Source: Stentor roeselii
Lineage: Eukaryota; Ciliophora; Heterotrichea; Heterotrichida; Stentoridae
Length of the DNA stretch: 64,000 nucleotides
NCBI GenBank assembly: GCA_006503475.1
Contig: RSEH01000095.1
Location: forward strand, 1 to 64,000
Direction: 5' to 3'
The notes below the pieces were generated by a model that worked only from the letters and a program-made list of their open reading frames with translations, was not told where the DNA came from and did no database searches. The position numbers and the translations under genes were made by a program. Each line of letters begins with the position of its first letter. Position 1 is the first letter of the stretch. Below are positions 4,129 to 64,000 of the stretch, one piece after another.

Positions 4129-7100
4129 TTATTAGAAGAGAAATGTAAAATTTTAAGAGGTTTAAGGGATTTAATTTAGGATGATAGTTTTATTTGATTT
4201 TGGGATTTTTTTGGGATGAAGAAAATTTAAATTTTTGAGAGGGAAAGGGGATTGAAGGATGTCTTTGAAGAGTGATTGAAGGATGTCTTTGAAGAGTGAT
4301 TGAAGGATGTCTTTGAAGAGGTGATTGAAGGGAATACCACGATGAACTCATTATTAGGGTTCATGTTTATATTTATGTATTTAGTGGATATCTTAAGGAC
4401 GCCTCATTAAGCCTGATATAAAATTATTTGTTCTGATTGGGAAGATATCGAGTTAAATTTTAATAATTTAGAGTCAAAATTTAAGGTTTTACACTTTCTC
4501 AGGTATCTTTACGATAAAGACAAAATTTAGAGTGTCTAGCCATATTATAATAACTAAAAGAATTAGAAGTTAGACAAGATATGTTTAGTTATCTTTAAGA
4601 TATAGTTTATTTCTTTTAAATATCTGATGAACTATGCGTTCCAGTTCTTAGATGTGGAAAAGAAGAGCTTTTTGTTGAAGTTTTTCAAATAAGATGATAT
4701 GAAAATGAAACTCGAAGGAAATACCTTTTTTGGAATGATTAAGAAAGATTTTCGATTTATGTTGATATAGAATCTGGATTTTAACGCAAGTTTACCCTTG
4801 GAAAATTAAATAAACTGAGTTGAATTGTTTTTGAAGAAGATTTATAGTGTTCTTTTATTAGAGTCCTTATTGAAGAGAAGGAAAATATAAGGTAATTAGT
4901 GATTAGATTAAAGTTGTTACTTTGTCTATTTGATAACAATATTCTAAGGAAATAATTTTTTAGTTTTTGATATGGAATCAGGGTTTTTGAAATAATTTCA
5001 CATTTGATGAGTGTTAAATATTCATTAATATTGGTGTTATTCATGAAGAGCTTTCCTATATTGGATGGCATTCATAAAATCAATGCATGCTTGAAGTTGA
5101 TGAAAATAGTTAAAGATTCCAGGATTAATCTTAAAATAACATATAATTCGAATTGAAACCTATTGATTGAATAAGATAATTTGCCAGTTTAGTCAAATCT
5201 TACAAAGTTCAATCTATTCATCTAATTTCCAACATCACTGATATTACTACAAAACCCTTTCCTAAATTTTTCAAATTAAATATTCTGAAATTAATCAAGA
5301 CCTTTAACTTTCAGTGTATTGCTCTTTCAGTCTTGATAATAAAAAGTCAGGATCATCCTCAAGACAAATATGAACTCTGAGGATATTTTTGAGTTATTAA
5401 GCAGAGTTTAGTGTTGACCAGAAACAAATCTTAAATTTCATTAAACAACAATTTTTAAGTTTTATTCAGTCTCTACAAAAAAATCTACTTTCTCAGTTTC
5501 CTACAAACAACCTTTTAATCTAATTTTTCCGCTATTTTCTTGAAAGAATTGAAAAATCACTTTTTTGGTTGATATTCTTGATGATTAAACAAAATTTATG
5601 AACTTGATTGAAAAGATTAAATTTTCACTTTTTCTGACCAGAGAACCAAAGAAGTTCATCTCCTTTTAGTAAATTTTTGATTAATAAAGGAATAGTTCTG
5701 CTTAGATGTAAATATTGACAAGTAGGCCTCTATAATGCTAACTCTTAACAAGGGGTATAAAAAATTAGAAAGCATCTAATTTCGAATGCAAATGAAAATA
5801 TTATCTCATAAATTAAGGTCTTACTACTGAGTTATAACCAATACTCATGAATCCATATGAAAATTTTATTAATTCAATATCTAAAAGAATAAGCTTTTGT
5901 GTTTATTCGCAACTTTAGACTAGCTTTCTGATAATATTAAATTTTTCTGTCCTATGTTCATCAATAAGACATGCATCAACCCTAAGTTTTAACTTCCAGT
6001 CATTCAATCTTTAGTTTGAACATTCACTTTAGGATTTCTGTAATTTTATATAACTAAAATTTGATACTTTTTGTGTACATCTTAAGGGAATCGACTTTAT
6101 TTGCCAATTTATTCTTAGAATTTAATAAATTTTAACCCTTTCGACATAGGGTTTATATTAAAACGAATAGTTAATTAGGATTATGAAAAACCTTGAATCA
6201 TTTGTCATGTAAGTGCACCCTGCATGTAGAGAATGGTCGATAGACTTCACAGTTTCTGTTAGAAAAAAATCGAATTTCGATATTTTATTATGCCTAAGGA
6301 AAATTAGCAGGGCCCGTAATTAGGCAGAAGTAAAATTGGCAGTAAGGCCTCTAAGGGTCCAGCAAGGTAATGGATAATAGCTGAATAGTCCTATTTTTTA
6401 GATATCAAGGCCCTAGTGATGTGATTTTAGTAATTGAAAAGCGCATTCCTTCCCTTAGTATTAACTAAGAATAATCAAGTATCATCGGATAAGCAGCCGA
6501 ATTCGCACCTGCAGATTGAATTTCTATAGATATCCATAATAAAAGTAAAATAAATCAAAAATCATTAGCAATCTAATCCCACCTTTTGGACAAGTATCCC
6601 TCTTTTAAGTAGCAATTACTGAAAATTAATATAAAAACCAAATTTTGGAAAAATTAATTAAGCATCTCAATTTTACCTGAATTATCTGTTTCATGTAATA
6701 ACAACAATGATCTTACTATGATAATGCATTCTAAGTTCCACTATTATTACTTCGAGATCATCACTCTGAGTATCGAGGTAAGTACAACTGGCTGCATTCT
6801 TTTACTATGAGAGTGTCCACATCTATCAATTTCACTATTTCTTATAATTTCTTCTGATATGACTGCAAAATATGGTATTATAACAGCAATTGTGATCCGA
6901 AGGCTCAAATTAATAAACTTCATCCTTAACCACTTTTAATGGTATAAATAGCTACATACTTTATTACTAACTGCAAAGTACTCAAGCTATATATTTACCC
7001 ATTCATCGAGTAAGTACACCTGTAATTTCTTCATAATAACTTAAAAAATAGAAACTCATCTCTACTGTTCGATTAGCTGCATCTCGAAAATTGTATGAAA

Positions 7101-10100
7101 TCTTTATGAGTTTGAAATTATATTGTTTTTATAAGGATGATAGGGATTAACTTTTATAAATTTTTTTGTGTTTTTTTGAATTAGTAAATTTTTGAATTAT
7201 TTCGATATGGAAAAGAGGTTTGGTCTTGAGGCTTCCAATTTAGTCAAACTTCTTTCTAAATGCATTTATTAAGTTTTTCATCGAGGTATATTCGAATCGG
7301 AGCTTATAATTTTAAAGATGATATAGCTACCTTGAAATTTGCATTTTGAAAAGTGAGAAAATCAAAGCCTATTTAGAGATTAATTGGCAAGTCTTAAATT
7401 TTTTGAGAGGGTAGAATAATCCTGGTTAAACCTAATTTAGTTTAAACACAAATAATCTTAATCTTTTACATTATTCCTGCATATTTATGTAAGAGGACTT
7501 TATTTTACTGCAGTAAATTATTATTACTTACTAAAACTGCTAGTGTTAGATTCTAAAGATTAGATATTTAATAATGTGCTTCAAGTGGCAAGATTATCTT
7601 TATTTTTCTCTGGAATTGGGATTAGTAATAAAAAAATAAACATTAATCTATTAAACCAATTAGAAACTTTTAAGCTTTTAATTAAAGACAATCAAGACTA
7701 ATTCTAGAATCAGGAAGCTATCATAGTTCAAACAGTCATCACTTAAATTCTATTGCCAAGAAGTACTCTGCCTAATAAATTAATCATCAGATTCACAAGA
7801 AGATGCTTATTCAACCATGGATTTCTATAAAGTTCATCAAATAATGATGAATATTTTTAATATACCAACTTGGGTAAATTATTTAAAACTAGAAATTTGC
7901 AATGTACCTTGAATGTATCGATTATAAGAAGTATCAGGCACTTAATAACAACTATAATATTGGTTCTTTTTCTGGTCCTTGCTAAAAGGGATATTTGCAA
8001 ATAGAAAGAGCACAAAGATTGATAATTTGAATATGATTAGTCTCAAAAGAGAGTATAGATTTCAGAGTTTAATTTAAATCTTTAGATTAATATCCATTAT
8101 GATCAGAATTTGAGTTTAAAATTCATTGGATCTATCAAGAAATAAATATTGTTTTGAATTAGTTATGTTTGGCATTAAAATATATAATGATTAATTAAGA
8201 GCCATAATTTATAAGTTTTAATTAAATACCATAATTAAAACTCTACCTTACTGATGCATATTTCTCTTCAAGATTCTAATAAATTACGAAAAGGTAAATT
8301 AAACTCAATACCTGAAAGCTATTCATTTTCTTGATCACAATTATTATAAATTCCAAAGCCTCTATCAAACCTACAGTAAAAAGAACCTTATAATTTCTAT
8401 TTCTTTTCAAAAATATTGAAATTCTGTTACTTTAAACTAGTTTTTTATCTATAATAGTTTTTTATCTTTTACTAATAAGATAATATTTTGAATTTCCTTC
8501 GATATGGTTCATTTTAAAATAATTGAAAAGTTTATGAGCTGAACGTTTTGAATTAAAATTTTTCATTAAGAGTCTTTTAAATAATTATGTAATTTGGGCT
8601 TGTAAGATTTTTGTTAAGTTTTTATATTTTATTCTTTATTTTAAAAAATATTATTTAAATGAATCAAATTTTGACAAATTTCAGTGTTTAAACATCGCCT
8701 CTTGTAAAGAATTTCGAAGTTTTTCAACTTTTTATTTGCAGATATCGAGAATTGGAATTTTTCCTCAGAGTTATGCAAATTTTTTCATTATCTTCTGCAA
8801 ATTCAATTATAATGAAGACTATATTCCAGTTTTTTATAGATTTTCAAGAGGTTCTTTTGATTATTTAAGATTATAGATATGTTTTACTTGTCATGGTTAA
8901 ACTATAAACTTAATTTTCACAGTTTTTTTTGGTTTCTTGGATTTTTGCAGATTTTCAACTTTTTCCAATTGATCAGTGACTACTCTTCTCCTAACTTTAA
9001 AAGATTTCGCAAAGGTTATTTGTTTTGTTCATTAAACTGAAGTTTTCTTGCTAAATGATGCAAATTTTTTGATAACCTCTTGAAAAGTTTCATAAGAAAA
9101 TAATTTCTTGTCAAATACTCCTGAACTTACAGAGCATTAAAGTAAATTTTTTCTTATTCTGTTATAAATTCCTTGTTTTCTTTATTAATCTTTCTTTTTT
9201 TCATTAAAGGTAATTCGAGTTAATTTATCAGTCTTAGAATTCACGATAAATTTTTTCTTTTCCCATTAATAAGCTAAATCGAAATTATCCAAATAAACCT
9301 TTCAGTTCTAAATCACATAATTTTTTATTCTTTTTAAAATATTCTTCATCATCTTTCTTTTCAAGCAGATTTTGTAGACAATATTCGAAGACTTGTAAAA
9401 AAAGAAAGTCACATACCTCAAGATCTGAAGCAAGCCACCTTAAGTTTTCTTTAAAGGGACTATGAATTAGAGCTATTAAAAATTTACTTTGAATGAAATG
9501 GTAAAAACTTAAGCTTTTTCTCTTGAAAGACTTTCCTGCTATTTAAATGAGCTGGAAATTTAGATTTAATTAGAGACACGTGACTTTTAAGGTATAATTA
9601 TGAGGTTATGTCTCATAGAATGAGATTTTTCAGTGATTTAGATGAGACTATTAAGTTTTTCTTTGATTCTTACTAGTTGATTTCGGATTATGCTAGTTTT
9701 TCTTAGTTTCGGTTTTATTTGGATTTCGAAAGTTTAGATGCTACTTAAGTATAAAAGTTCAGAGGTTTTCATGGAAATTCAAGGCGCACTACAGCACTTT
9801 TCGCAATTTGTAAAAATTCTGGAGAGTATTTTCCTTTTTCTTTGAGCTTCTTCAATAACTTGGCCTGGAGTCCTTACCTTATTTTGATGTAGCTTTGTTC
9901 GAACACTAGTACCTCAGCCACTTTCGTTTTTGTCTAAAGTCTTAAATATAGATTCTAGAGTCCTTTCTAATTTTGCTTCATCAATTCTATAGATAAAAGT
10001 CATTTGAGGATGATAATTGGAGTAAGAAATCCTATAGAGTGAGGATATTGAAGGTAGTGAATTAAAGAATTGATTATTGATAGATACCTAAGATGAACTT

Positions 10101-10171
10101 ATCTAAGTATATAAAAAACTATTAAACAAATAATCTTTAGGTCTAATAATTATATAGTGTAAATTTTAATC
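4129..10171. other. Six-kilobase stretch without a recognisable gene
   Basis: Both strands are dense in stops; I see no long open frame, tRNA, rRNA, or spliced gene using 15-nt introns. Composition is clearly more AT-rich than the flanking genes. It contains a short 24-bp tandem repeat at 4250-4332 and a small GC-richer island near 6295-6400. The best open stretch, 4781-5071 (-), looks like chance. The left end carries the upstream region of the LamG gene and the right end that of the coiled-coil gene. Such a long empty stretch is unusual beside gaps of 0-300 bp elsewhere in the window. Confidence 0.6.
4250..4332. repeat. Tandem repeat, 24-bp unit, about 3.4 copies
   Basis: The unit GATTGAAGGATGTCTTTGAA-GAGT is repeated at 4250, 4274 and 4298 (the third has one extra G) and is followed by a partial fourth copy, GATTGAAGGG. 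It lies about 120 bp upstream of the LamG-gene start and is noncoding. The copies are nearly identical, which suggests recent expansion. Confidence 0.9.
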
Positions 10172-11254
10172 ATGGCTATAAATATGTCCTGCTCTTACGA
10201 TGGCTGTCCTCAGAATATCAAAAATTCTTGTGATGATTGTCCTGAAATTACATACTGGTGCAACGATCATTCAGATTCTCATGAAAATGAAACAGATCAC
10301 CAGACTATTCATATCAATAAGGAGAAATTGAATGAGATTACTTTGATATTTCTGAAGTCAAAAATCGACAATTATATTATTGAGATATTAAATGATACAG
10401 AAAGAGTTATCACAGCTTTGAAAAAAGCCTCAAATGATGCAATAAAAAGACTTAAAGAAACTGCAAAGAATATCAAAAACATCACTGAGCTTGAGCCATT
10501 TCGATTTTCAAAAGAAAGAATCTCTTTTCTAGTAGATGAAGTAGGACAGATCTCAAAAGATATGAAAATTAGCCCACTATGCCTAATAAATGATTTACAA
10601 AGAGAAGTTAATGATAAGGATAATCTAGTATTAAGCTTTGAAGTTGAAATAAGTGAATTAAAACAAGAGGTTTATGAAAAGGAGCAGATTCTCCAGTCAG
10701 TCCTAGATGATAGGGAAAGAGAAAGTGAATGGGAATTGGAAATATTAAAAAGAGAATTTGATTTTGATTTATACTCCGATAATATAGTAGAAAAGTTTGA
10801 ATTCTTCTGGGGGATCACTGGAGAATACTATAGGATTCATGGCTGGGTAAGAGAGGGCGTAAAAGAGAGATGTCTTCATCTTCTATTTTCCAACAATAGA
10901 AAATATTGTTTTTTCTGTATTCACTAATCAGGTAATTTCGAAAAAGATGGTAACTACGAAAAAGCTTGTAACCTGCATCGAAGACAGTAACTTAAATCAA
11001 AGTCGGTAACCTGCATCGAAGCAGCTAGCCTAGATCAAGAAGGAAATGGTAATATGCATCAAAGAATGTAAAATTAAACAAAGGGGGTAACCTAAACTTA
11101 GGTAATCGATATAGAAGCCTGTATCAGAAACTTAGTGCATGTTTGGAACTTAGTAAAGAAAGTATTCGAGCAACTTCGTCCAGGGGAGAGCAATAAGGTT
11201 TATGAGAAAAGATGGCAGCAGCTTTACCCGGAGTGCATATTCAGCATAGATTAG
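10172..11254 (+). CDS. B-box-like Cys/His and coiled-coil protein with multiply interrupted 3' part
   Basis: The first exon (10172-10916) encodes an N-terminal Cys/His cluster resembling a B-box zinc site (C7, C12, C20, C23, C30, H33, H37, H43), then a long charged coiled coil (about residues 45-215). Read straight on, it stops at 10925-10927. That stop lies inside a consensus 15-nt intron (10917-10931, GTATTCACTAATCAG). Downstream are further GT...AG units of 15 or 16 nt separated mostly by 3 nt, then an open tail from 11136 to TAG 11252-11254 containing HVWNLVKKVFEQLRP. Removing every unit leaves 912 nt, exactly 304 codons with one terminal stop. The 15-nt units after the first can also be kept in frame, so the exact exon set is uncertain. 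Without further splicing the protein would end at 10990. A decayed gene is the alternative. Function unknown. Confidence 0.6.
10932..11135 (+). repeat. Tandem array of intron-sized GT...AG units
   Basis: Units start at 10932, 10950 (15 nt), 10968, 10987, 11006, 11049, 11068 (16 nt), 11087 (15), 11102 (16) and 11121 (15). Each begins GTA and ends AG. The 16-nt units at 10968 and 11006 are identical (GTAACCTGCATCGAAG), and those at 10987, 11049 and 11068 are close variants. Spacers are 3 nt, except 27 nt at 11022-11048 and none at 11101/11102. The period is therefore 18-19 nt. Confidence 0.85.
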
Positions 11255-13819
11255 TTTAGTAATAGATTTTCATATCTTGTTTAATCTTAATATCCCACTA
11301 TTAATACTTTTACATTGAGGATCCTGAAATTTTTACTTGATTTTAATTAACATCCTAATTTCACCATTTAAGCAGGTACACAAGGACATTAAGATTTTGT
11401 CAGTAGCTGCAGTTTAGAAGCATGAATAAAAAAATAGACTGAACCGCCTAAGAACTTGAGGATCTTTAGACCTATCTTGATGAAATCTTTGATTATATTA
11501 TGAAGTGATGCTATTTCCAAAGGTTTTTACCACAACAAGGTAATTTCAGACAATATGTCCAAACTTTTTTAAGTCACTTTGTGAAGAACTCTTTTAACAG
11601 TCTCACTACGACATCGTAAAATTGCTCTCAACATGATAGGAACTCTAAGATAAAGGACACTATTACGAAAAAATAATTCTCATCATATTATCAGTCACTT
11701 CAACTAATTCAAGTCATTAAAGAAGATCTCGTCTTGTTTAACTCCATCATCGAATAACTATTTCACTAACTGAAATTCGTAGTCTTTCTAAAGTAACCTC
11801 AAGGAATATGTAAGAAAAGTAAAAAGAATTTTGCTTAAGTATTAAGTGAATCAGAAGAGTCATTGAGTTGCTTAAAATTTTAGAAATTTGATTTTCATAG
11901 ATAATTGTAGACCAGAATTGGTAGGAGACTTTTTAAAATCTTAGACTTTAAGAAGGTTATTTTTTAGGTACTCTATTTTGAGGTTATCACAATGGAATAC
12001 TTTATGGAAAGTAAGTAATTAATGGGAGGACTTGGTTTTAGGATTTTAAGAGGAGGGAAAAGAAAAGTTATCAGAAGATGGGGGCCGTATTTGATAGAAT
12101 TTTTTTTCAGTGTTTATCGTAAATATGAATATCTAGATGGATGATAATATGATGCTTGTATTATCAGAAAAGATTAAAGTGAAATTAAAATGTGTTAATT
12201 TAAGGATTTCATCAGTGTTTTCCTTCTATTTCAGTTGATGCCATGGTAATTGGGTAAGTGTGATATCAGTGGTGAAACTTAAGACCCAATTAATAATAAA
12301 GCCTTTAAATGAAAAAGCAACATATAAAATAATTAAACTGATCATTATGCAATAAAGTTATTCCTTCAAATACAGTAGATCTAGCAGATATTAATAAAAT
12401 TTAATACTTTAGTATAAATCCTTGTGCTATCTTTTTCATCTACATTACAAGATACATATAAAATGAATTTCTTGATATTACTTTGAATAGCAAGTGTAAA
12501 TATCAATTGCAGATTTCGACCAGGTTTGAGTTTATAACTAATTTAAATAAATTATCCTTGAATGAAGATATTTATCTTTTTATTCTCGATCATGAGCTTC
12601 TTTCATTTCTCATATCAAAATTACGTAAGTGATTCATATTTATTGTTTAAAAATTCATATATTCTTATCAAGATAATTTAAGGTTTGTCTGAAAAAGATT
12701 GTCCAGGCATGAAGATTGAGTTTTCTCTCAAGTTAGGTCTTCTACTTCTTTAAATTAGAATTCAAAGTTTATTGAATATTATGATTTTTATTTAGATTAC
12801 TAATGTTTTTCACTAGATTTCGATTATTAGTGGTTTTAATCTTTAATATCGCAAGGATTTATAAATATTCAAGATAATGCCAAGGTACTCGAATTAAATT
12901 GATACATAAGAATATTTTAATAATACTAATATTATAGAATCCTCTTAGGCTCACTTAAATTTATAATTCTAGAAAAATTTCTTTATTCAAATTTAAATAT
13001 TATTAATTGTTACAAACTTTTATTTTTTATATCTCAAACTGGAAATGGTGGATTGATAAAAACTTTACTTATTTCAATCTTGTGTATACTTTGGTGGAAA
13101 ATGATAAACTCAACCTTGATCCTTATATTCTTGATCTTTGCAAGCTACCAAATTTCACTCTTTATCTTGAAGTAAAAATTGAAAATCATCAAGATTTTAG
13201 CCTATTGCTTATTCCTATACTACTTAATTCCCTTTCTCTTCCAACTTAGTTCAGCATTTTTAAATTGAATGACTTTCTACTGTCTTTTAAAATGATTATT
13301 TAAAAGTTTTTTACTTTCTTTGTGGATACAAAGATTAATTCTTGTTTTTTGTAGAAAAGCTTCTGCCTTTGACGATAGGACTCGGGTTTTGATTACTTTA
13401 TTTAAGAATTAATTTATAGCTACTGCATATCATGGGAAATTTTATGAGCAAACTTTTTGTGTACTGTGAGAAACAAAGAAAAATGATTTTAAGTCTTGAT
13501 TATTTAAGTACTATTAGTGTGAGTATCTTTTTTAATTAAGTGCTTTGGTAATCTTATATCAAATTCCTAATAATATAATAAATCTTATTTGTTTAATGTG
13601 CTTACTTTTACCATTTAATTTATTTATGATGTAAGGAATATTTCAGAAATCATTTAAGTACATTTTGTTGAATTATGCTTCGGTTATATTTGGAGTTTTT
13701 ATGTTCTCTTCCTTAATCGATTTTTATAGGAAAATCAGAGATTTGAATATTTATCAAGGAATTATGATGAAACAAAAAGATCATATGCATTAAATTCTAT
13801 TAACTAATTCTAATATTGT
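11255..13819. other. No gene recognised
   Basis: About 2.6 kb of AT-rich DNA with scattered stops in all frames. A short open stretch at 13007-13249 (+) lacks a convincing ATG and has low-complexity composition, so it was not called. No RNA gene or ordered repeat was seen. Confidence 0.55.
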
Positions 13820-14797
13820 TTATAGTTCAAGTATCTTAGAAATCAATTGATATATTCCTACACCTATTATAATACTAGAAACCATTGAGCAATAACTTAA
13901 AAAAAAGTATTTAATCGAATCTCTATATTTTTCATATACAATAAGAAAAGAAAAAGGTAATAGCATTGAAAAAATACTCAAAACTGTAAAAGCTTTGAAA
14001 ATTCCCTCAAGAACATACTCTGAAATGATAAAAATAACGAAATTCATGAAAACTATATTAAAAAACCAAATTCCTGATTCAGGGTAAGACGAATTAACTA
14101 CAAAAATCAAATTTCTCCTTTTTTGATGCAGTAGATGATTACTATCCATAAAATTTTTCATAGAAATCAGTAAATAAAAATTGAAAAAGAAGTAACTTGC
14201 ACAACAAACCAGATAACCTATAAAAGGAAAAAGAATAGTCATCAAAAATAAGAAATAATCATCTCCAGTTGAAAAAATAAACAAAATTCTAGGAAACATC
14301 AGTAAACGAATATTTTGTAAAATATGATTCCAAAAGTAAATGTTAAAATAATTTACTTTGGTTAAAAGGACGTATAAAAAAATCTCAGACCACAGTACAA
14401 TAATAAAGTTTTCATTAAATTCTAATAATTCAATGCAAGAGTAATAAAAATGCAGTAGGTAAATAATCTCATTTTCGTAAAGGAATATCTGATATCCTAG
14501 CATAAAACTCAAAAAATCTAACAGGGAAAGAACTATGAAGAAAATCCAATGAGAATCAGAGTGTAAGGCAAGCCTTGCAGTGTTTATGAAATAATCATAT
14601 AGATCTACTGCCTCTAGCTCAAGAAAAGCACTGTAAAAGTTAACGATTAATGTAAAATATTTGTATATTAATACAAAAATCAAGCAAAGTGATAAAAGTT
14701 TGTATTTTGTTTTATAGACTATATCTAATGTCAAAATGCCCATGCCTATAAGGACTAGCAAGATAAAAAGACAGTGGCAGTATGTATAAACTTCCAT
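13820..14797 (-). CDS. Multi-pass membrane protein, family member 1
   Basis: A 325-residue protein that is mostly hydrophobic helices, about eight or nine membrane spans, starting MEVYTYCHCLFILLVLIG. It is clearly homologous to the next gene upstream: SCIELLEFNENFIIVLWSEI matches SLVEILKFNENFVFVIIAEV, and ISEY(V/F)L and (V/M)IYE motifs recur near the C-terminus. No known transporter or enzyme signature is visible. The gap to the upstream paralogue's stop is only 10 nt, and that gap carries TAATAA directly before ATG. The pair looks like a tandem duplication. Function unknown. Confidence 0.85.
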   Translation of the reverse strand: MEVYTYCHCLFILLVLIGMGILTLDIVYKTKYKLLSLCLIFVLIYKYFTLIVNFYSAFLELEAVDLYDYFINTARLALHSDSHWIFFIVLSLLDFLSFMLGYQIFLYENEIIYLLHFYYSCIELLEFNENFIIVLWSEIFLYVLLTKVNYFNIYFWNHILQNIRLLMFPRILFIFSTGDDYFLFLMTILFPFIGYLVCCASYFFFNFYLLISMKNFMDSNHLLHQKRRNLIFVVNSSYPESGIWFFNIVFMNFVIFIISEYVLEGIFKAFTVLSIFSMLLPFSFLIVYEKYRDSIKYFFLSYCSMVSSIIIGVGIYQLISKILEL

Positions 14798-14807
14798 TTA
14801 TTAACTA

Positions 14808-15773
14808 TTATCTTCCTAAATAACTAAAAGCATAATGCGAAACATAAATGCTCCAAATAATTGAAACAAAGTTCAACCAATAGAGAATCAATGAATCGCC
14901 AAAAGTCTCATAAATCATTAAGAAAGCCAAAGGTGAAACAAGTGAAAAAGTGCTAATCAGCGTTAAAGTAAAATATTTTCCCTTTAAAAAATATTCTGAA
15001 ATAAATAAAACAGTGCTGTTTATGCTAAGATATAAAAGTAAGTGAACTATTGTATAAGCTTTACTAGTATTTAGAAGGTAAAGCAATCTTCTTCTTTTTT
15101 GAGTATAATCAAAGTAAAAAGTTATGTCATTTTTGATATTCCAAAACAATGAGTAGTTTCCATAAATATAGCCTATTGATAAACCTGCTAAACCTAAAAA
15201 CGACGCAAATGTTGTTAATGAAAAAAAGAAAAAATCAGCTTCTCCACTAATCCAAAAAAATATTTTTATGATAATTATGAGGAAGAAAAAGGAATATAGG
15301 TCTTTAGAATGGCGATATTCAATATAATGTATTTTATGCTGGAAAGCTAGTAAAACTACTTCTGCAATTATCACAAAGACGAAATTTTCATTGAATTTTA
15401 GTATTTCCACCAAGGAATAACAAAACTGGGTTTCAATCAAGTGAAGCTTCCAATAGTAAAAAAGATCAATACCGAAACTATGTATCAAAGTATCTAGTAA
15501 TGATAATAACATAAATATTTTCCAGTGATCATCTGAAAATAATGCATTTTTTGCTAATAATAAAGATTGCTCGTAGAGAATCGGTGGGTCTAACTTCCAA
15601 AATAATTGTAAATAGTTATAATAAAATAGAATATTTGCATATAAGTAAACCAAATAAATTGATCTGGAAATAAAAGCATTTCGAGATCTCAACAGGAAAG
15701 AAGAGACTTTTGAACTAGCATAAAGTAGAACTAAAAGAATCAAAAGAGAGTAAACATAGTAATATTCTTCCAT
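14808..15773 (-). CDS. Multi-pass membrane protein, family member 2
   Basis: A 321-residue hydrophobic protein beginning MEEYYYVYSLLILLVLLYAS, with the same layout as its neighbour: an N-terminal span, a conserved ELL/EIL-x-FNENF segment about a third of the way in, a short basic loop (QKRRRLLYLLNTS) after the middle spans, and a C-terminal ISEYFLKG...LMIYE block. ATG is preceded by TTATAA. It is a tandem paralogue of the 13820-14797 gene, with sequence divergence throughout, so the duplication is not recent. No cysteine-rich or catalytic motif was seen. Function unknown. Confidence 0.85.
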   Translation of the reverse strand: MEEYYYVYSLLILLVLLYASSKVSSFLLRSRNAFISRSIYLVYLYANILFYYNYLQLFWKLDPPILYEQSLLLAKNALFSDDHWKIFMLLSLLDTLIHSFGIDLFYYWKLHLIETQFCYSLVEILKFNENFVFVIIAEVVLLAFQHKIHYIEYRHSKDLYSFFFLIIIIKIFFWISGEADFFFFSLTTFASFLGLAGLSIGYIYGNYSLFWNIKNDITFYFDYTQKRRRLLYLLNTSKAYTIVHLLLYLSINSTVLFISEYFLKGKYFTLTLISTFSLVSPLAFLMIYETFGDSLILYWLNFVSIIWSIYVSHYAFSYLGR

Positions 15774-16925
15774 TTATAATTTTCATCAACTCTAGTAAAA
15801 CATATAGAGTTAAAATTACAATAATCTTATTTTTTTTATAGTATCCAATTTCTACTTATATTTTAATATTCAAATTATGCTTTTGGAATGGAAATTTACA
15901 ATCTTTAAAATCTTCAATAAAATGATTATTGGAATAATAATTATTAATCCAGCGCTCCTAAAAATGTTGAAAATTAAGCTTTTGAAACATATCTTGTAAG
16001 AAAATCTGAAGCTAATTAAAACGAATGATCAAAGTATTTAATCAATTGAAACATAATTATATAATTTTCAATCTCCTAATCGTTTAAATTAGTTAAATAT
16101 ATCAATAACTTTATAAAGCAAGCAGAAAATATTCAAGTAAATAATTAGCTATGTCCTTGTTTAAATTACTCAAAAAATTCCCTTAAAAAATTTATCAAAA
16201 CATGCGCAAAAGAGAAATAATATCTAAGGTACTCCTATTTAGATAAATTATTCAATTAATTAATGTTTCAGGGTTTCTAAGACTCTTACTTTTGGTTTTA
16301 AGAACTTCTGTTCATCTGCTTAATTTTGAATTCAATATTTTTATTGAGTGCTTTAATCTTGACTGCTTATATCAAGATTGATCAACATATACATTAAAGA
16401 TTCAAAGAACTCCTTTTCGATCTACTCTAAGTGATTGCTGTAGTAAAAGATAAATAGAATAGTTTTAACTTCCCTTCGATGCTATTATTATGCCATTTAA
16501 GAACGATTTTTCTTCTATTTTATCCTCTGTGGGTATGTTTAGACTCTTACTACTGCAACTTCACAAAAAATTTTTTAAGCAGAAGGTTTTTAGCCTAGGA
16601 AATCTCTAAAGGAATATACTTTGATCACTTAAAATCTAAAAACTTATAATTCATAGTTTTAAACCATTTTACCTTTTGAAATCTTGCTAAATGTGATTAA
16701 ATCTCTTTATAAATGAAACCTTTACTTAAATTTATCTTATAATAATTATGAATTTCAATTTAGTTAATATCTGATAATTCTTAATATCTTCTTTTAGCTC
16801 AACAGATATTTTCTCAGGTAAATCTTTTGGGATTCTAACAGAAACGTAACACATTCTTACTTCTTGTATATTCTTAAAAAATTATTAAGATTAAACCATT
16901 TCTGATAAGTATCTTTTATAATAAA
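15774..16925. other. Intergenic, divergent genes
   Basis: 1.15 kb between the divergently transcribed membrane protein and protease genes. It is AT-rich and stop-dense in all frames. Its ends hold the two start regions (TTATAAATG on the left, TTTATAATAAAATG on the right). Nothing else recognised. Confidence 0.6.
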
Positions 16926-25399: not shown

Positions 25400-28300
25400 C
25401 TAAATCTCTTGATCATCATGTAAATAAAAACATTTTCTCTTCTGATTAATAACTTTCGCAAAAATTTCCTTATTAAACTCAAACTTGAAAGCTCCAGGTT
25501 TAAACTTTTCAAGTAATTCTCTAGTAACATCACTGACATTGATTTTTCCAGCAAGTCCTCCACTTTCCATTTTATTTGCCATTAAAACATCAGGTCCATA
25601 AATATCATATCGAACAATATTCGTTCCAGTGATTCCAGCAATGATTTCGCCGACATGAATGCCAATCCTCATGTTAAGTTCGCTGCCGTTTTCCAAGTTG
25701 ATATCTTTTATGACTTGAATCATGCTCCTCGCCATGCAAACAACGTTGTAACATTCAACTGCCGGGTCTCTTTCGTCTTGAGCCATTAGTCCCATTACAA
25801 CGTAACAGTCTCCAATTGTATGGACTTTGTAAACGTGATGGTCTAAACATTTCTTGTCGAATCTTGTGAATAACTCACTTAACATTCCTACTACTTCTTT
25901 TGGAGACTTGTCCGAACTCCAGGCTGTGAAACCTACGATGTCTGCGTAGAGAAGAGGAACGTCTCGGAAGGAGTCGGTTGCTGTTTTATCATGCCTCATA
26001 TTCTCTAAAACATGAGGAGGCATCATCTGAGTTAATAATTTATCAGTTTTTGAAATTTCTTTTTCAGCAAATCCTCTTAAGTTGAAGTAAGTTCTTAAAT
26101 GATTCTCAATGGTATAAATTGCAGAAGAATTGATTACAGCGAAGACAATCACAAACGCACAATTAGCTGCATGGCCTGTAGCATCATTTGAAAACCCTCC
26201 CAAAATGCCCCAAGGTATAAAAATCAAAACAAAAGCTGGAACGACTTTAGATAGAGGTATCTGTCCAGAATGATGAACAAGCAAAATAATATACATAACC
26301 TCAAGAGCAACTGCATCACTTTCCTTTTCACTATAAATCAAATCCAATAAAATCACAATAATCATACAAACAAAAACAATCAACATGACCAAAGGAAAAA
26401 CCCTTTTCAAATAAATCTTCTTATGAAACATCACAATTAACAACAAAACAACAATAATTCCAAGTCGAGCTAAAAACGCCGGCAAAGTTTTCGGATGAAT
26501 CAAAGAAAACTCCAACAAGCTAATTAAAGTCATCAAAGAAAAAGTAACCAAGGCAATAACCGTAGTAAAAAACATCAACTTAGAGTCATTCTGTGTTTTA
26601 TCCAATCTAAACTTCGCCTGTTTTTCAGTTTCTCCACAAGAAAAGTCGAAAATCTTGACTTTCCCAAGTATTTCAGTATCATACCTTAAAAAATTCTGTT
26701 GTCCTTCTTCAATTTCAAGCATAGTCAACAATTCACTATTCCTTTTCTTCATCCTTCCATCAGTGACAGTTCTCGTAAAACTTGAATGTTGCAACATAGT
26801 ATTCATATGATTGAACCCAAGTCTATTAATACTTTCATGAGGCGATACTACTTTCGACTCACTAACAATAAAAGTATGCATCGTTCCTTTCCCCTTCGCT
26901 TCAATCGTATTCGCTACAAACTCAAGTCCACTGACATTATCAACTAAATCAAAGCATTCCTTCGAGATCTGAATAGAATTCGGTGATTCAAGTGTCGAGC
27001 ACATTCTACTAGAAGTATTAACCGTGTCACCCACAAGTGAAAATTGAGGCTTGTGATGACCAACGACTCCAGCAGTGACAGGTCCTGAATTAATCCCAAT
27101 CTTCAACTGCAACTGAAGTCCACTGTTAAGCCTAATACTTGAAGCAAGAGAAATAATTGCAAGTCCGAACTCAATCGCTCTCCGAGCATGAGAAACTTCT
27201 CGAACTGAAGGATCCAGTTCTACTTCACTGTCTTTCAACCCTGCACAGGCCATGTAGGTCTTTCCTACTGTTTCTATTTTAGTGACTCCTATTGCTGTGC
27301 TTAATTGGTCGAACTTCTGAAAGACTGTATCTAAAAATTCTACAAGTTCTTTTGGATCGTATTCTGCACATATTGAGTCGAAATCGACAATGTCACAAAA
27401 AAGTACTGTGACAGTGCCTTGATCTTCTGCGATGTATCTTACACCGTCTTTTACTCGCTTTTTTACGAAGGCGGGAAGTAAAAAACTGAGGATTCGCTGG
27501 GATTTGTCAACGTCGATTTTTTCTATGGATATTAGTTTGTACTCTAAACGTCTTGTTCGCTCTAAGTGGTAACCGAGAATCGCTGAGGTTAGGGTTATTG
27601 AAAAGTTTAGGATTAGGTAGTTTAGAGCGATTAATGTTTGGTAGCCTGGGGAATAACCTGTTGAGGAGTAGCCAAAGTAATAGGATATTGATATTGTGTA
27701 GAGACTTAGGTTCATTATGTTTAGATAAGTCACTTGTTGCCAGTCGACATTGAATAAAACGTATGTCACAGCAGGTATTATCCCAGTCGCCAACGCTCCA
27801 GGTTTCAAAAACGCGATTTCAGCAGCAAATTTCACAATAAGTCCAACCGCAATAACAACAACCGTAAGAATCAAATAATTATTCATATAAAAGTCAGTCC
27901 AAAGTACCACAACAACAACTAAAAACCCAGTACACATCAAAGTTCTGATCAAATTATAATAAATTTCCGCTCCCAACACAAAAGCTTCTAAAATTGTCCA
28001 AAGAACCAAAAGACAAAACAGCAAAAAAACCACAATTTTGTAAAACTTAATATTTTCAAAAATATAAAACTCCCGATACTGAGCTTCAATAAATCTTGAG
28101 TTAAAATGAAGACTCATTTTTTTTATTTCAAAAGCATCAGATTCCAGATTGTTTTTCGTGAAACTCGTCTCTCGATAAACTTTTGAAAGACTCGTCGAGT
28201 ACATTTCAAGTCTGTTAAACCTTTGAATAAAACCTGTATCATCTAAAGAGTAAACCTTTTCATAAAGACCAGGACGGAAAATAGCAGAATAATGAACATA

Positions 28301-31300
28301 AGCCTGGTGAATGCTTAGCAAGACCAAAGGAATCAAAAACAAAGAAATCAACATGCAAGGTGCCGCGATGATCTCTTCACCAGCTCCAAGTAAATCACCA
28401 TTTCCGATTTCAACTAAAGAAATAAGCCAGAGATAAGCCGCTAGAATGAAAACTGACAGTAAATGAGAAGCTATATACAAATAATTGTAACAAAAAGTAT
28501 CTAAAGCTATTTGAATCAACACAGCAAAAACAACGACTATATACATGCAAGTCCCAAACACTGTCTGGTCCTGACTCATCCCTTTTTCATTCAGCACAAA
28601 AAACTCATTGTAAGTAAAAAAGCACGGAATTATAATCCCATCAATAAAAGCAAGCAAAGTGTAATAAACCATCTTCCGCCAACTAAACAACGCCTGTGAA
28701 AGTCCCTGAGAATAAATCTCAGGATGTTCAAAGATCTTCTCAGCTCTTAAGTCTTCATCAAATACTCCTAAAGCAATGATCGGCAGAGAAGTGAAGCCAA
28801 TATTAAACCCGACAATTAAAGATGATTTAAAAACTGATTCACCGGAGTAGTCACTAATGAAGATGTAAGCGAAAGTCACTATGATTAGTAAGACGTTTTT
28901 ATAGATGAAGAGTAAAACTGAACGTGACATTCGGGAGTAGTTCCAGTGACCGTCGAGGAGTAAAAGGTCTTTTAAGCAGGAAAAGTGATTTACTCCGATG
29001 TCGGAGTAACTTTTAGCTTGACTTCCTTCTTTGCTCATTATGCCGATGCCCACGTCAGCTGCTTGGATCATTGGAATGTCGGCGTTGCCGTCGCCGATTG
29101 CCAAGGTCACTGGACGGAAGGAAAAGTTGTTTTTTACCAGATTTACTACTTTTGCTTTGTCCATTGGTAGAAGACCGGAAAAGAAAACTGATGAGGCACC
29201 GAAGAGAAGGATTGTTAGGAGCTTTCGGTTTTCTTCGGATTCTATTGCGAGTAAAAAACTCTCTCTGTCTATGTTTAAGATGTAACTCACCATATCAGGC
29301 ACGAATTGTCGGTCTAAAAACTGCGAAAGAGGAATATCCGGTTTAGCCAAATCTTTAAAAATCGGATGCTGTGCAAGAATAACCTCAGCATTATTCTGTT
29401 TCCCCAAGTCAATCATAGTAGTCCTTTCATTCGGGCGTTCATTAAGCTGAATACTTTCATCAGATTCAACTTTGCCCAAAAGCCCTCTCGTTTTTTTCAC
29501 ACTAACATTTCTAGAAATCGGTAAATCAGTGATTTCATGAAAAAAAAGCTGATTAATAAGCCTCATCAAAACATGTAAACACTTATTTTCCGTCTTAATT
29601 CCACAAAAGTTAACCAAAGACGACTCACTTTTCAAAAGTCCGACTTTTCTTGCAGTAGTAATCGTTGAAGACTCATTATCTCCGCTTAACACCCAGATTT
29701 TAATACCAGCTCTTTGAAGTGACTTAACCGTATCAATCGTCTCAGGCCTGACCACGTCTTCGATGCCTGCGAGGCCGATGTAAGTCGCGTCTTTTTCAAG
29801 TTCAATATAACTGTTTTCTATTCTTCCTTCTGAATTTATTGGAATGTGCTTCGCGTTTTGAAGCTTTTGTAAAAAGTCAGAAACTTGTGATTGTGAAAGC
29901 TTTTTATATGCGCAGAGAACTGTTCGAAGACCTTGCTTGCAAGCTGAGTTGTAATGACTTTCGATTTCTTCGGTTCCTGATTCGGTTATTGTTTTTACTA
30001 AACGGTCGTAACTGCCTTTTAGGTAGAGGATGTGGTCGTCACCTTTTTTTAAGAGAATTCTTGAGACTTTTGAGGAGGAGTTGAATGGACTCACGGCTAG
30101 GATTTCGTATGAATCTTGGCTACCCATGCTGTCTATTGTGACCTCATTTTCAGATCGAGCAATCAATTTGACTCCGATTTCACTAGCAGCTTCAGCCATG
30201 GCTATTTCATCTCTAGAAATCCCAGAAAAACTACCACCTTCAATTTGTACAGTATTACAAAGAGCCATGCATTTGACATACTGATAAGAAATCGAATTCT
30301 CATCACGAAATAAAGTCTGTCTAAGTTTCTGAAAAGCAGGTGAAAGTCTTTCAGTTAAAATCGAACTTCGATTAGTTTCCTGCCCATTAATCAAAAGTTT
30401 CGAGTTACTTTCCGAAAAGACTCTATTAAAAACCGGTTTTTCCTCATCAATCAAAGTTTGAGTTCTATCAGTTTCCTCTTCATACCTGCGATATTTTATA
30501 TTTTTTACAATACAAAGTTGGACTTTTAACTCATTTTCAGTAAGAGTTCCAGTTTTATCTGTGAAGATATACTCGACTTGTCCAAGGTTTTCATTGACAT
30601 CGCCAGTATTGAAATCGACGGACTTTTTATATTTCTTCGAAATGAAGAAAGTTTGAAAAATCCTGAGCATGTCCATTGTCACAAACAAGGAAATGGGAAT
30701 GATATTGTTATAAAGAATAGTAAACATTACAAATGAGTTCAAAGTATTGATTTTCTTGAAAGATGATAGGGAAAGGTACTCATGAGCCAAGACTGAAAAA
30801 ATTACAAGGAACAGTAAAAGTAAAAGTAAGTATAAAACCCATTTATTCACCTTTTTCTCTAATTTTGACACTTTTCTTGGAGGTTTGCTGATATTCAAGT
30901 AACTTTTAGTTTCTAGTCCAGTATAAACAACAACTCCGACAACCCATTGAGTACCTTTCAAGATACTCCCTCGATAAGCCAAAGAAGAGCAAAACAACTG
31001 GATGGCTTTGGGGTGTCCACTAAGCTTAAGTTTTCCTTTAAACTTAAAAAAATCATTATTCGGAGGTTCATAAGTGACAACTCCAGCAAGTTTACTAATC
31101 ACATAATCCTTTCCCAGACTTTGGAACAATCCATGAGTCTCACTGACTGCTTTTTTCGCAGTTAAGTCACTTTCCCCATTAATCCCTGAATTATCCAGTA
31201 AAAACACTCTATCTGCCCTGGTCCCAAGAACAATAATATCAGCAGGAAACTTCTGGTTCTCCTCGACCATCACAATTGTGCCGACGAGGATTTTTTCACA

Positions 31301-31669
31301 TTTGACACTCGTGAAGCTTGTTCCATCCCAAGCGGTGTAGTCCGAGTTGTTCACTTTAAAGTCTTCTCGTCCTCTGTAGTAGTCGTTGTAGGCGTCTTTT
31401 AATAGTGTCAGCCCAATCAAAATCGCCAGAGGCACGACTGTCGTCCAGGAGTCGACCGGGTTGAACTCGAAGGGAATCAGTTGGAAGATAGAGACTAGTA
31501 AGAACCAGATGTTTGCTGAACGCTGGAACTGCTCGAATAGGTTTTTTGGCAGAAGAGTTAGAAGCTTGTAACGAGTTGATTTGACTTTGTTGGAGACGAA
31601 TTGGGATTCCAGCACTGGCTGGCTTCCTGAAAGTTCTTGACTCCTCCAGTTACCTTCACTTGGTTTCAT
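25400..31669 (-). CDS. P4-type ATPase/guanylyl cyclase fusion
   Basis: A single 2089-residue frame. Residues about 1-1100 form a P4-ATPase (lipid-flippase-like): A-domain GINGESDL (163-170, replacing the usual DGET), phosphorylation motif DKTGTLTEN (Asp371), LSGDNE (661-666) and hinge GDGNAD (859-864). Two six-span blocks each precede a class III cyclase domain. C1 (around 1415-1590) has Asp1426 but Lys1470 where the second metal Asp is expected; it carries Glu1466 and Ser1544, the guanine-selecting positions, plus Asn1551 and Arg1555. C2 (around 1900-2070) keeps both metal Asps, 1910 and 1954. This swapped C1/C2 order is known from ciliate and apicomplexan guanylyl cyclases. The expected product is cGMP at a membrane. 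Whether the ATPase half pumps is unknown. Confidence 0.95.
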   Translation of the reverse strand: MKPSEGNWRSQELSGSQPVLESQFVSNKVKSTRYKLLTLLPKNLFEQFQRSANIWFLLVSIFQLIPFEFNPVDSWTTVVPLAILIGLTLLKDAYNDYYRGREDFKVNNSDYTAWDGTSFTSVKCEKILVGTIVMVEENQKFPADIIVLGTRADRVFLLDNSGINGESDLTAKKAVSETHGLFQSLGKDYVISKLAGVVTYEPPNNDFFKFKGKLKLSGHPKAIQLFCSSLAYRGSILKGTQWVVGVVVYTGLETKSYLNISKPPRKVSKLEKKVNKWVLYLLLLLLFLVIFSVLAHEYLSLSSFKKINTLNSFVMFTILYNNIIPISLFVTMDMLRIFQTFFISKKYKKSVDFNTGDVNENLGQVEYIFTDKTGTLTENELKVQLCIVKNIKYRRYEEETDRTQTLIDEEKPVFNRVFSESNSKLLINGQETNRSSILTERLSPAFQKLRQTLFRDENSISYQYVKCMALCNTVQIEGGSFSGISRDEIAMAEAASEIGVKLIARSENEVTIDSMGSQDSYEILAVSPFNSSSKVSRILLKKGDDHILYLKGSYDRLVKTITESGTEEIESHYNSACKQGLRTVLCAYKKLSQSQVSDFLQKLQNAKHIPINSEGRIENSYIELEKDATYIGLAGIEDVVRPETIDTVKSLQRAGIKIWVLSGDNESSTITTARKVGLLKSESSLVNFCGIKTENKCLHVLMRLINQLFFHEITDLPISRNVSVKKTRGLLGKVESDESIQLNERPNERTTMIDLGKQNNAEVILAQHPIFKDLAKPDIPLSQFLDRQFVPDMVSYILNIDRESFLLAIESEENRKLLTILLFGASSVFFSGLLPMDKAKVVNLVKNNFSFRPVTLAIGDGNADIPMIQAADVGIGIMSKEGSQAKSYSDIGVNHFSCLKDLLLLDGHWNYSRMSRSVLLFIYKNVLLIIVTFAYIFISDYSGESVFKSSLIVGFNIGFTSLPIIALGVFDEDLRAEKIFEHPEIYSQGLSQALFSWRKMVYYTLLAFIDGIIIPCFFTYNEFFVLNEKGMSQDQTVFGTCMYIVVVFAVLIQIALDTFCYNYLYIASHLLSVFILAAYLWLISLVEIGNGDLLGAGEEIIAAPCMLISLFLIPLVLLSIHQAYVHYSAIFRPGLYEKVYSLDDTGFIQRFNRLEMYSTSLSKVYRETSFTKNNLESDAFEIKKMSLHFNSRFIEAQYREFYIFENIKFYKIVVFLLFCLLVLWTILEAFVLGAEIYYNLIRTLMCTGFLVVVVVLWTDFYMNNYLILTVVVIAVGLIVKFAAEIAFLKPGALATGIIPAVTYVLFNVDWQQVTYLNIMNLSLYTISISYYFGYSSTGYSPGYQTLIALNYLILNFSITLTSAILGYHLERTRRLEYKLISIEKIDVDKSQRILSFLLPAFVKKRVKDGVRYIAEDQGTVTVLFCDIVDFDSICAEYDPKELVEFLDTVFQKFDQLSTAIGVTKIETVGKTYMACAGLKDSEVELDPSVREVSHARRAIEFGLAIISLASSIRLNSGLQLQLKIGINSGPVTAGVVGHHKPQFSLVGDTVNTSSRMCSTLESPNSIQISKECFDLVDNVSGLEFVANTIEAKGKGTMHTFIVSESKVVSPHESINRLGFNHMNTMLQHSSFTRTVTDGRMKKRNSELLTMLEIEEGQQNFLRYDTEILGKVKIFDFSCGETEKQAKFRLDKTQNDSKLMFFTTVIALVTFSLMTLISLLEFSLIHPKTLPAFLARLGIIVVLLLIVMFHKKIYLKRVFPLVMLIVFVCMIIVILLDLIYSEKESDAVALEVMYIILLVHHSGQIPLSKVVPAFVLIFIPWGILGGFSNDATGHAANCAFVIVFAVINSSAIYTIENHLRTYFNLRGFAEKEISKTDKLLTQMMPPHVLENMRHDKTATDSFRDVPLLYADIVGFTAWSSDKSPKEVVGMLSELFTRFDKKCLDHHVYKVHTIGDCYVVMGLMAQDERDPAVECYNVVCMARSMIQVIKDINLENGSELNMRIGIHVGEIIAGITGTNIVRYDIYGPDVLMANKMESGGLAGKINVSDVTRELLEKFKPGAFKFEFNKEIFAKVINQKRKCFYLHDDQEI

Positions 31670-36244: not shown

Positions 36245-36571
36245 CTTGGAATTATTAGAATTAAAGTACTCCCATTATTGACTCAAGGATTACACTTAAT
36301 AATTATCACTTTTTTCCAATCAATCCTCAAAGTAAAAAAAATGATTTCCCTAAAAATCTCTTAAAAAATTTACCAAATCATATTTCCAGAAAATTCCAGG
36401 AAATAAACTTTGAAATTTTTTAAGTTTTCATGAAATTCATCAAGATATATCCATTCTTCCTTATTAAAACATCGGCCGATATCCAATATCCTTAAAAGCT
36501 AAAGATCATTAAACCTTCAAATTTTAAAGTTTTCATGAAATTCATCAAGATATATCCATTCTTACCTATTA
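36245..36571. other. Intergenic with duplicated NUP210 3' end
   Basis: 327 bp between same-strand genes. Its left part is plain AT-rich DNA; from about 36412 onward it carries a degenerate copy of the 3' end of the neighbouring gp210 gene. Confidence 0.7.
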
Positions 36572-36616
36572 TTAAAAATTCGGCCGGTATCCAATATTCT
36601 TAAAAGCTGAAGATCC
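36412..36616 (-). repeat. Direct duplication of the gp210 gene 3' end
   Basis: Two copies of a roughly 95-100 bp unit, offset by 105-108 bp. Copy B (about 36518-36616) contains the true last codons (SSAFKNIGYRPNF and stop) plus downstream DNA. Copy A (about 36412-36508) still reads SLAFKDIGYRPMF and stop in the same strand and phase. Shared downstream words include TCATGAAATTCATCAAGATA on the plus strand. Confidence 0.85.
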
Positions 36617-48619: not shown

Positions 48620-48633
48620 ATTTACTAGTCTTA

Positions 48634-49137
48634 CTAAGATTCTTCAGAATCCACTTCAAGTGCCCAGTGATACTCTTGCTTCAGTCTTTCTTCTATTTCA
48701 GGGGTGAAGTCTTCTTCAATGTTATACCTTGTCTTCGCCTCGTCTATCGTCATTTCTTTGAAAGTGCACGCGTATTTCACAAGACATGCATCAAGCAGGC
48801 ATTTCATGTCCAGATAGTTACTCGCAAGAATAAGTTCTAACAAATCTTCATCTGAAAGCGAAGAAATCAAAGCCGCGTCCCATTCATCTGAAAGGTTTTC
48901 TTTTAAATCTTTTGATACGATTGGCTTTTTTGGAGGAAGAGGCGCGATAAAATCGTGATGTGCGCAGAATTCGATGATTCTTTGAAGGGTCTTGGATGAT
49001 ACGGTTTTTAAGTCGATTTCTTCATTTGGGTTGTAGTCTTGGATGATTCGCAGAATGAACCCGGATAATTGGGAGATTTTTATGGAAGTCGTGAATTTTA
49101 CACCGTCACTTGAAACGAGGACTATTTGCTCGGTCAT
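48634..49137 (-). CDS. SKP1: SKP1, SCF ubiquitin-ligase adaptor
   Basis: 167 residues with the full SKP1 plan: an N-terminal POZ fold (VLVSSDGVKFTTSIKISQLS), an acidic linker, and the F-box-binding C-terminal helices (LLELILASNYLDMKCLLDAC, then YACTFKEMTIDEAKTRYNIE and DFTPEIEERLKQEY). Proteins of this family bridge cullin-1 and F-box proteins in the cytosol and nucleus. The start sits 12 nt after the stop of the upstream gene, with CTAATAA against ATG; its own stop is 14 nt before the next start. An F-box/WD40 partner candidate lies at 19782-21107. Confidence 0.93.
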   Translation of the reverse strand: MTEQIVLVSSDGVKFTTSIKISQLSGFILRIIQDYNPNEEIDLKTVSSKTLQRIIEFCAHHDFIAPLPPKKPIVSKDLKENLSDEWDAALISSLSDEDLLELILASNYLDMKCLLDACLVKYACTFKEMTIDEAKTRYNIEEDFTPEIEERLKQEYHWALEVDSEES

Positions 49138-52333: not shown

Positions 52334-52428
52334 TTTTTATGATTATTAACTTAGCACTTTTAGATCTTGATTTTAATTTGAAGAATTTTTTTCCTGGTTA
52401 GTTTTTTTTGGAATTTTAATGGTCTTAA

Positions 52429-63878: not shown

Positions 63879-64000
63879 TTACTTAAATCCAGTTTGAAAC
63901 ATTCCTGGCATCATTCCTGGCATCATTCCAGTCATCATGGGATTCATTCCAGCCATCATAGGATTCATTCCAGTCATCATGGGGTTCATTCCAGTCATCA
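63879..64000 (-). CDS. C-terminus of a Met-rich repeat protein (5' part outside window)
   Basis: The last 39 codons of a frame open to the window edge, ending TAA at 63881-63879. It reads as seven-residue units of the form MTGMNPM (with MAGMNPM variant), closing with GMMPGMMPGMFQTGFK. The repeats are nearly identical at DNA level. Frame, strand spacing and stop context fit a real gene. Too little is visible to name it. Confidence 0.65.
   Translation of the reverse strand, partial: MTGMNPMMTGMNPMMAGMNPMMTGMMPGMMPGMFQTGFK

Follow-up and report, generated by a model that had tools for sequence, protein, structure and literature searches.

Eleven consecutive units that begin with GTA and end with AG, five of them 15 nt and six of them 16 nt long, occupy positions 10917–11135 on the forward strand of the window, by which we mean the whole 64,000-nt stretch of DNA analysed here. 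Judging from their sequence, these units may be a tandem array of Stentor-type tiny introns that is spliced now or was spliced recently, a reading to which we assign a probability of about 0.47 (this figure, like the grades given below to other readings, is a judgement and not a computed value). We rank this reading slightly above its main rival, a one-intron gene (or pseudogene) with a tandem repeat that is out of frame. The splicing interpretation offered by a preliminary description of the locus is supported in part: conservation of the splice sites and of an A at position 10 (A10) favors it, as does the composition of the downstream “tail,” but the open reading frame and the proposed duplication of an intron together with a codon do not hold up.

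Layout of the array and its gene

The window is AT-rich, with long open reading frames (ORFs) and short introns, looks like ciliate macronuclear DNA and uses the standard genetic code (stops in 21 genes: 12 TAA, 7 TAG, 2 TGA). Together with the form of the introns and a flippase–guanylate cyclase fusion elsewhere in the window, this code suggests a Stentor-like heterotrich. The eleven consecutive GTA...AG units reported in the preliminary description proved correct in coordinates, lengths and sequences (Table 1). Gaps between successive units are, in order, 0, 3, 3, 3, 3, 27, 3, 3, 0, and 3 nt, and the ten start-to-start steps comprise five of 19 nt, two of 18, two of 15 and one of 43. Single GTA...AG units are common (103 on the forward strand and 79 on the reverse; two-strand mean in shuffled sequence, 158). 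When units no more than 9 nt apart are chained on both strands of the 64-kb window, the array forms runs of six and five, and the sole other run is one pair; in 60 dinucleotide shuffles the longest run was two (50 shuffles) or one (10 shuffles). The only abutting GTA..AG pair outside the array, at 51627–51657 on the strand opposite a gene, is probably there by chance.

Table 1. Features of the array gene; u1–u11 are the GTA...AG units in order, and “required” marks units that must be removed for the frame to stay open.
Feature	Positions	Strand	Description
Exon 1	10172–10916	+	open frame, 248 codons plus one base
u1	10917–10931	+	GTATTCACTAATCAG; 15 nt, canonical-looking intron, A10, CAG end; required
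u2	10932–10946	+	15 nt, A10, AAG end; abuts u1 (AG|GT); frame-neutral
u3	10950–10964	+	15 nt, A10, AAG end; frame-neutral
u4	10968–10983	+	16 nt, A10 without A11, AAG end; required
u5	10987–11002	+	16 nt, A10, AAG end; required; contains TAA 10988–10990 (stop of the one-intron model)
u6	11006–11021	+	16 nt, same sequence as u4; required
27-nt “exon”	11022–11048	+	reads AASLDQEGN with the preceding base; contains ux
ux	11025–11039	+	CTAGCCTAGATCAAG; twelfth, non-consensus unit: G1 lost (starts CTA); T2, A3, A10, AG present
u7	11049–11064	+	16 nt, A10, AAG end; required
u8	11068–11083	+	16 nt, A10 and A11, AAG end; required
u9	11087–11101	+	15 nt, A10, TAG end; highest profile score in the array; frame-neutral
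u10	11102–11117	+	16 nt, A10, AAG end; abuts u9 (AG|GT); required
u11	11121–11135	+	15 nt, A10, TAG end; frame-neutral
Tail	11136–11254	+	two bases, then 38 codons HVWNLVKKVFEQLRPGESNKVYEKRWQQLYPECIFSID, TAG

Units u4–u8, at least, derive from one another as tandem repeats with a spacing of 19 nt in most cases, and Tandem Repeats Finder reports a small 18-nt array at 10931–10972 (one of its 15 rows in the window); our own alignment by hand places a 38-nt higher-order repeat, with indels, in part of the array among u4–u8. Several of the 16-nt units had been described as the same sequence, which is true of those at 10968 and 11006 (u4 and u6) but not of the other four. The array had further been said to grow by duplication of an intron plus the same codon, and here the sequences disagree, as the 3-nt spacers of u4–u8 are not conserved (0.20 of spacer pairs identical vs. 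0.65 in the core columns, a value as low being found in 7 of 364 triples of columns). Array GC is 0.36, i.e., gene-like. A search of the rest of the window for copies of the units with up to two mismatches returned one match (to u11; reverse strand, 30335), which lacks GTA. On the reverse strand across the array there is no ORF of at least 150 codons; in one frame, stretches of some 30 to 47 codons are open.

Exon 1 starts at an ATG (10172) that opens a 251-codon frame closed by TAA at 10925–10927; its N-terminal part is Cys/His-rich and the remainder looks helical or coiled-coil by eye. Ranked among 194 coding windows, its codon score falls at the 9th percentile, and its best-frame score (7.3) is well above those of four intergenic stretches (−4.1 to −6.4), with the unspliced array plus tail intermediate (mean −1.3). 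The tail is coding-like in composition: its GC is 0.42, compared with an intergenic mean of 0.27 (1.3% of 12674 windows are as high), and the 120 nt 3′ of its TAG have a GC of 0.23. Its codon score, 4.7 bits over 38 codons, does not separate the classes (medians over 39 codons: 7.7 for coding windows, 3.4 for open non-coding ones). The tail frame is open over 11102–11254 and holds no Met, so that the tail, if coding, must be joined to upstream sequence.

A search for relatives of the spliced tail had been proposed as a check. The spliced protein had no PDB match at E up to 10, nor had exon 1 at E up to 1. Pfam gave only matches below cut-off, namely FAM76 (E 2.3e-4) and CID (0.015) for exon 1, and FAM76 (4.4e-4) and CC2-LZ (3.5) for the spliced 303 aa; the first 65 residues had no Pfam match. 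A below-cut-off match of a 95-aa spliced C-terminal piece to DUF6961 (0.07) was treated as chance. Six peptide patterns from exon 1 gave 9 pattern matches in viral contigs and 89 in genome contigs, none confirmed, and these collections, being viral or prokaryotic, say little about ciliate relatives. Elsewhere in the window, neither exon 1 nor the tail nor the array has a convincing further copy: the best tblastn E values were 0.22 and 0.25, and at the DNA level exon 1 had no other match better than E 0.039. No Rfam family appeared at gathering score, and no tRNA.

The array gene is isolated, with no other ORF of at least 150 codons and no decoded gene in 4129–10171 and 11255–13819 (about 9.7 kb around the gene, with little coding signal); the remainder of the window is denser. 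Two adjacent reverse-strand ORFs (13820–14800 and 14808–15776; 325 and 321 aa) are membrane-like and alike by eye, have the lowest codon scores among the genes compared and were missed by the gene decoder; one of them, scanned over 14808–15773, had no Pfam match. An intron-less reverse-strand gene at 25400–31669 encodes a protein of 2089 aa in which a phospholipid flippase (P4-ATPase) is fused to two guanylate cyclase stretches, an arrangement not known outside alveolates and their kin. Also on the reverse strand, 45719–48643 and 49514–52336 encode neighbouring proteins that are alike by eye, the first of which (the only one of the pair scanned) has a DUF6909 match and a weak cyclic-nucleotide-binding match. 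Tandem repeats occur at 36404–36615 (108 nt, two copies, reaching into the end of the gene at 36572–42328) and at 63923–64000 (21 nt, 3.7 copies with 91% matches, extending past the end of the window).

Reading frame and codon scores after removal of the units

Removing all units in silico opens the frame, as the preliminary description had claimed, to 912 nt (303 codons plus TAG) with the tail at its end. Enumeration of removal subsets agrees with its further statement that the six 16-nt units must go while the later 15-nt units are frame-neutral: 16 of 2048 subsets are open, and all 16 include the unit at 10917 and every 16-nt unit. The minimal open set therefore consists of seven units (u1 and the six 16-nt ones), and retention of u2, u3, u9, and u11 lengthens the frame without bringing in a stop. 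Three of the 16-nt units lie 5′ of the 27-nt exon and three lie 3′ of it, and the frame requires that each trio be fully removed. Two AG|GT junctions do lack an exon between them, as had been noted, but zero-length exons are not required, as the minimal set has none.

The opened frame had been taken as evidence for splicing, and this it barely provides. In total the 16-nt units amount to 96 nt and the 15-nt units to 75 nt, so that exon 1 and the tail already share a genomic frame (10172–11254 is 1083 nt) and the effect of the removals is to take out stops. When all removals were shifted by 1 to 9 nt either way, the middle was stop-free in 17 of 18 displacements—i.e., displaced removals are equally open. 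A stop has hardly any room in 3-nt exons, which makes an open spliced frame weak evidence. The frame likewise stays open in 63% of trials with shuffled micro-exon letters, and we estimate that the three exon pieces (exon 1, 27-nt exon, tail) would agree in frame by chance about once in nine. If the array is not spliced, it shows how, where introns are so short, almost any frame can be “spliced” open in a drifting repeat, and annotation of such genomes needs a displacement control.

With all units removed, the linker between exon 1 and the tail has 17 codons and a codon score of 7.3 bits, a value reached by 0 of 5227 intergenic windows, 6.6% of 2450 in-frame coding windows and 0.08% of 1292 off-frame coding windows; in 2.8% of 20000 trials, shuffled micro-exon letters scored as high and kept the frame open. 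We dropped this score as evidence for splicing because displaced removals score higher: over 19 codons, displacements of −6, −5, −4, −2, and −1 beat the true linker (6.84) while remaining stop-free, and −3 does so with a stop.

The alternative that survives best is a gene with one intron (10917–10931) that stops at TAA 10988–10990 after 267 codons (...CFFCNFEKDGNYEKACNLHRRQ), or a pseudogene, in which the downstream 18–19-nt repeat would be of coding origin and have slipped out of frame, leaving the tail as a relic of the former C-terminus. We regard it as plausible, if rather doubtful. The gene decoder chose it (one intron, u1, with the stop at 10990), and it has the best fixed-model score at a prior of −11 bits per intron (19.6 bits for one intron, 16.7 for none, −16.0 for seven, −22.0 for eleven). 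Two further priors were tried, giving 24.6, 16.7, 19.0, and 33.0 bits for the same four models at −6 per intron and 27.6, 16.7, 40.0, and 66.0 at −3. As the eleven-intron model wins at −6 and −3 but not at −11, the verdict hinges on whether introns within the array are counted as independent of one another. The gene-like GC of the array and the poor quality as introns of the required units (see below) also favor the one-intron gene, while the tail, being open and coding-like in composition, speaks against it. Candidate cDNAs would be separated by the strings TTTTTTCTATGCTTACATCGCAGCTAGCC and GGAAATGAATGGGCCTTGCATG (full array spliced) and by TTTTTTCTGTAATTTCGAAAAAG running into GTAACCTGCATCGAAG (u1 removed, array kept).

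Conservation and intron-likeness of the units

Position-specific conservation, including that of A10, is a better argument for splicing than the open frame. We aligned u2–u11 and ux (11 units) from the left; the alignment and the nine-column identity given below presuppose that columns 1–11 are free of indels. The limits of ux were set by hand, its start 19 nt from that of u6 and in register with it, its end at its AG, so that this AG is not independent. T2, A3, A10, and the final AG are present in 11 of 11 units and G1 in 10, whereas the nine other interior columns have a mean pairwise identity of 0.37, near randomness. GTA and AG were selected by the search itself but A10 was not, and A10 is present in all eleven of u1–u11, compared with 29% of 68 decoys of 15 nt and 26% of 97 decoys of 16 nt.

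Neutral decay was simulated in 200000 runs on a UPGMA tree fitted to the nine interior columns (a rough tree; in 15-nt units columns 12 and −4 coincide). At the fitted divergence, 0 of 200000 runs retained all five GTA/AG columns in 10 or more of the 11 units, and at half, a third and a fifth of that divergence the fractions were 5.5e-5, 0.0019, and 0.027; for the core six units alone they were 6.9e-4 (fitted), 0.030, 0.11, and 0.30. Loss of GTA/AG at the fitted divergence argues against a repeat that decayed neutrally downstream of a one-intron gene.

Coding constraint is a different matter, as it would make columns 4, 7, and 10 the best interior ones. Under the one-intron model, the out-of-frame repeat would have a hexapeptide pattern, Gly/Cys/Ser-Asn-Leu/Phe/Tyr-x-Lys/Arg/Gln-x, and interior conservation does have a period of three, with columns 4, 7, and 10 (one codon class) highest in exactly the phase of that model. 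Such a value is reached by 1 of 84 triples, or about 0.036 when any of the three classes is allowed, and by 1 of 28 pairs if column 10 is left aside. Yet because the invariant T2 is then a third codon position, and because AG is kept although its codon phase differs between 15- and 16-nt units, coding constraint would appear to fit the GTA/A10/AG pattern less well than splicing. Nor is the repeat length divisible by three: five of the ten steps are 19 nt, and a 19-nt period shifts the frame from copy to copy, so that the units cannot have been maintained by uninterrupted coding.

How intron-like the units are can be judged against Stentor coeruleus, for which the available text of PMC9505925 gives 8806 annotated introns, all of 15 nt (92.81%) or 16 nt (7.19%), with the branch A at position 10 in 8005 of 8173 15-nt introns and at position 11 in 442 of 633 16-nt introns (191 are without it). 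Here GTA starts and AG ends are present in 11 of 11 units by construction of the search, and the lengths are those allowed, in an atypical proportion (16 nt in 6 of 11 vs. the published 7.19%). All five 15-nt units carry A10; the six 16-nt units all have A10 as well, and one of them has A11. AAG ends eight of the eleven units (including all six of 16 nt) and a pyrimidine precedes AG in three, while the accepted introns elsewhere in the window end in CAG or TAG in six of six cases, bearing out an earlier caveat that the AAG ends are unlike the rest; a pyrimidine before AG, as a criterion, comes from this window alone and is not stated in the available text of PMC9505925. Unit A+T is 0.667, compared with 0.70 for the six accepted introns and a published 0.756 for S. 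coeruleus (PMC9505925, as available).

In a profile built from the six accepted introns—a weak one, as two of the six fall inside the decoy range when left out—u4, u6, u7, and u10 are mid-range among 165 decoys, u1 also scores inside the decoy range, and only u9 stands out. Apart from u1, the units whose removal is required are the least intron-like in length, branch position and 3′ end. The accepted introns come from the seven that the decoder called besides u1, one of which (16 nt, GTG start, 1125) was dropped because an uninterrupted ORF spans it. The decoder's intron model was set by hand to favor 15 nt, GTA and an A at −6, so that such features in its introns are partly built in; the pyrimidine-AG ending is not.

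Two further readings fare worse. It is improbable that the array is a chance 18–19-nt minisatellite, with a consensus that happens to be GTAA...AAG, adjoining but unrelated to the gene: the Tandem Repeats Finder array and the relatedness of u4–u8 would suit it, but neutral simulations at the fitted divergence lose the motif, and the array begins at a decoder-called intron and ends at the coding-like tail. A single long intron (10917–11135, 219 nt) with an internal tandem repeat is more improbable still, for although its 287-codon product is open and in frame, it needs only the u1 donor and the u11 TAG acceptor, and length-capped surveys would miss such an intron (e.g., MAX_INTRON_LEN=40 in the Loxodes pipeline), it is at odds with the 15- or 16-nt length of every annotated S. 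coeruleus intron (PMC9505925, as available) and leaves the retention of GTA, A10, and AG in the internal units unexplained.

Possible splicing of the array and comparison with known systems

The spliced-array reading has a stronger form, which the sequence leads us to advance tentatively: up to eleven working 15–16-nt introns, separated by mostly single-codon or zero-length exons, would have spread by tandem duplication, and the linker would survive only because every non-triplet unit is spliced. The 15/16-nt spliceosome would take out the units one by one, each being recognised whole (GTA, a 10-nt lariat loop, and AG five or six nt on), and unspliced neighbors would act as long flanks, so that a 3-nt exon never needs recognition alone. 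Exon 1 would then be joined to the 38-codon tail via the 17-codon linker, or a longer one if frame-neutral 15-nt units were kept. The array would have grown by tandem duplication of intron-containing sequence and could still be functioning or be a remnant of recent function.

If spliced, the array would be a limit case for the spliceosome, with successive 10-nt lariats and 3-nt exons between them, and intron recognition in heterotrichs would have to proceed intron by intron, without exon definition. It would also hold a readable record of intron multiplication by tandem duplication, in a culturable kind of organism, caught at one locus and near the densest possible packing.

Among the literature matches listed (titles and abstract starts, most subscription papers lying outside the coverage), none concerned tiny introns arrayed in tandem with exons of one codon between them. 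Introners, as the available text of PMC9860276 describes them, are likewise intron-like sequences that multiply, whereas within the window the spread of the units is local and tandem, with no dispersed intron-ended copy at up to two mismatches. Stwintrons and recursive splicing, in the sources as available, share with the array abutting or nested introns excised in succession; the units here lie side by side, not nested, and mostly one codon apart.

The closest published idea that we found, in the available part of PMC10809524, is that new introns arise when tandem repeats with AGGT sites in them expand, as proposed for the dual-specific AGGT arrays of human UBC and VCX3A, which resemble our array in having splice sites inside tandem repeats. 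In UBC these sites delimit whole ubiquitin monomers and are used as alternatives (PMC10809524, as available), while the repeat here is a 15–16-nt intron-like unit plus one codon; 2 of its 10 junctions are AG|GT and 8 are not.

By form, the units would best be filed as a variant of Stentor tiny introns, a variant because the 16-nt units do not follow the branch position of their published counterparts. They share with the tiny introns of S. coeruleus (PMC9505925, as available) a length of 15–16 nt, the GTA start, the AG end, A10 (in 15-nt introns) and the standard code. They differ in that the 16-nt length accounts for six of the eleven and the AAG end for eight, and in being packed with exons of 0–3 nt and one of 27 nt. 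According to the same text, 18.14% of S. coeruleus genes have introns, mostly one each, and genes annotated with more than eight introns exist, although real splicing of all those called is uncertain. Loci like this array may thus already be present in the S. coeruleus annotation, among those intron-rich genes.
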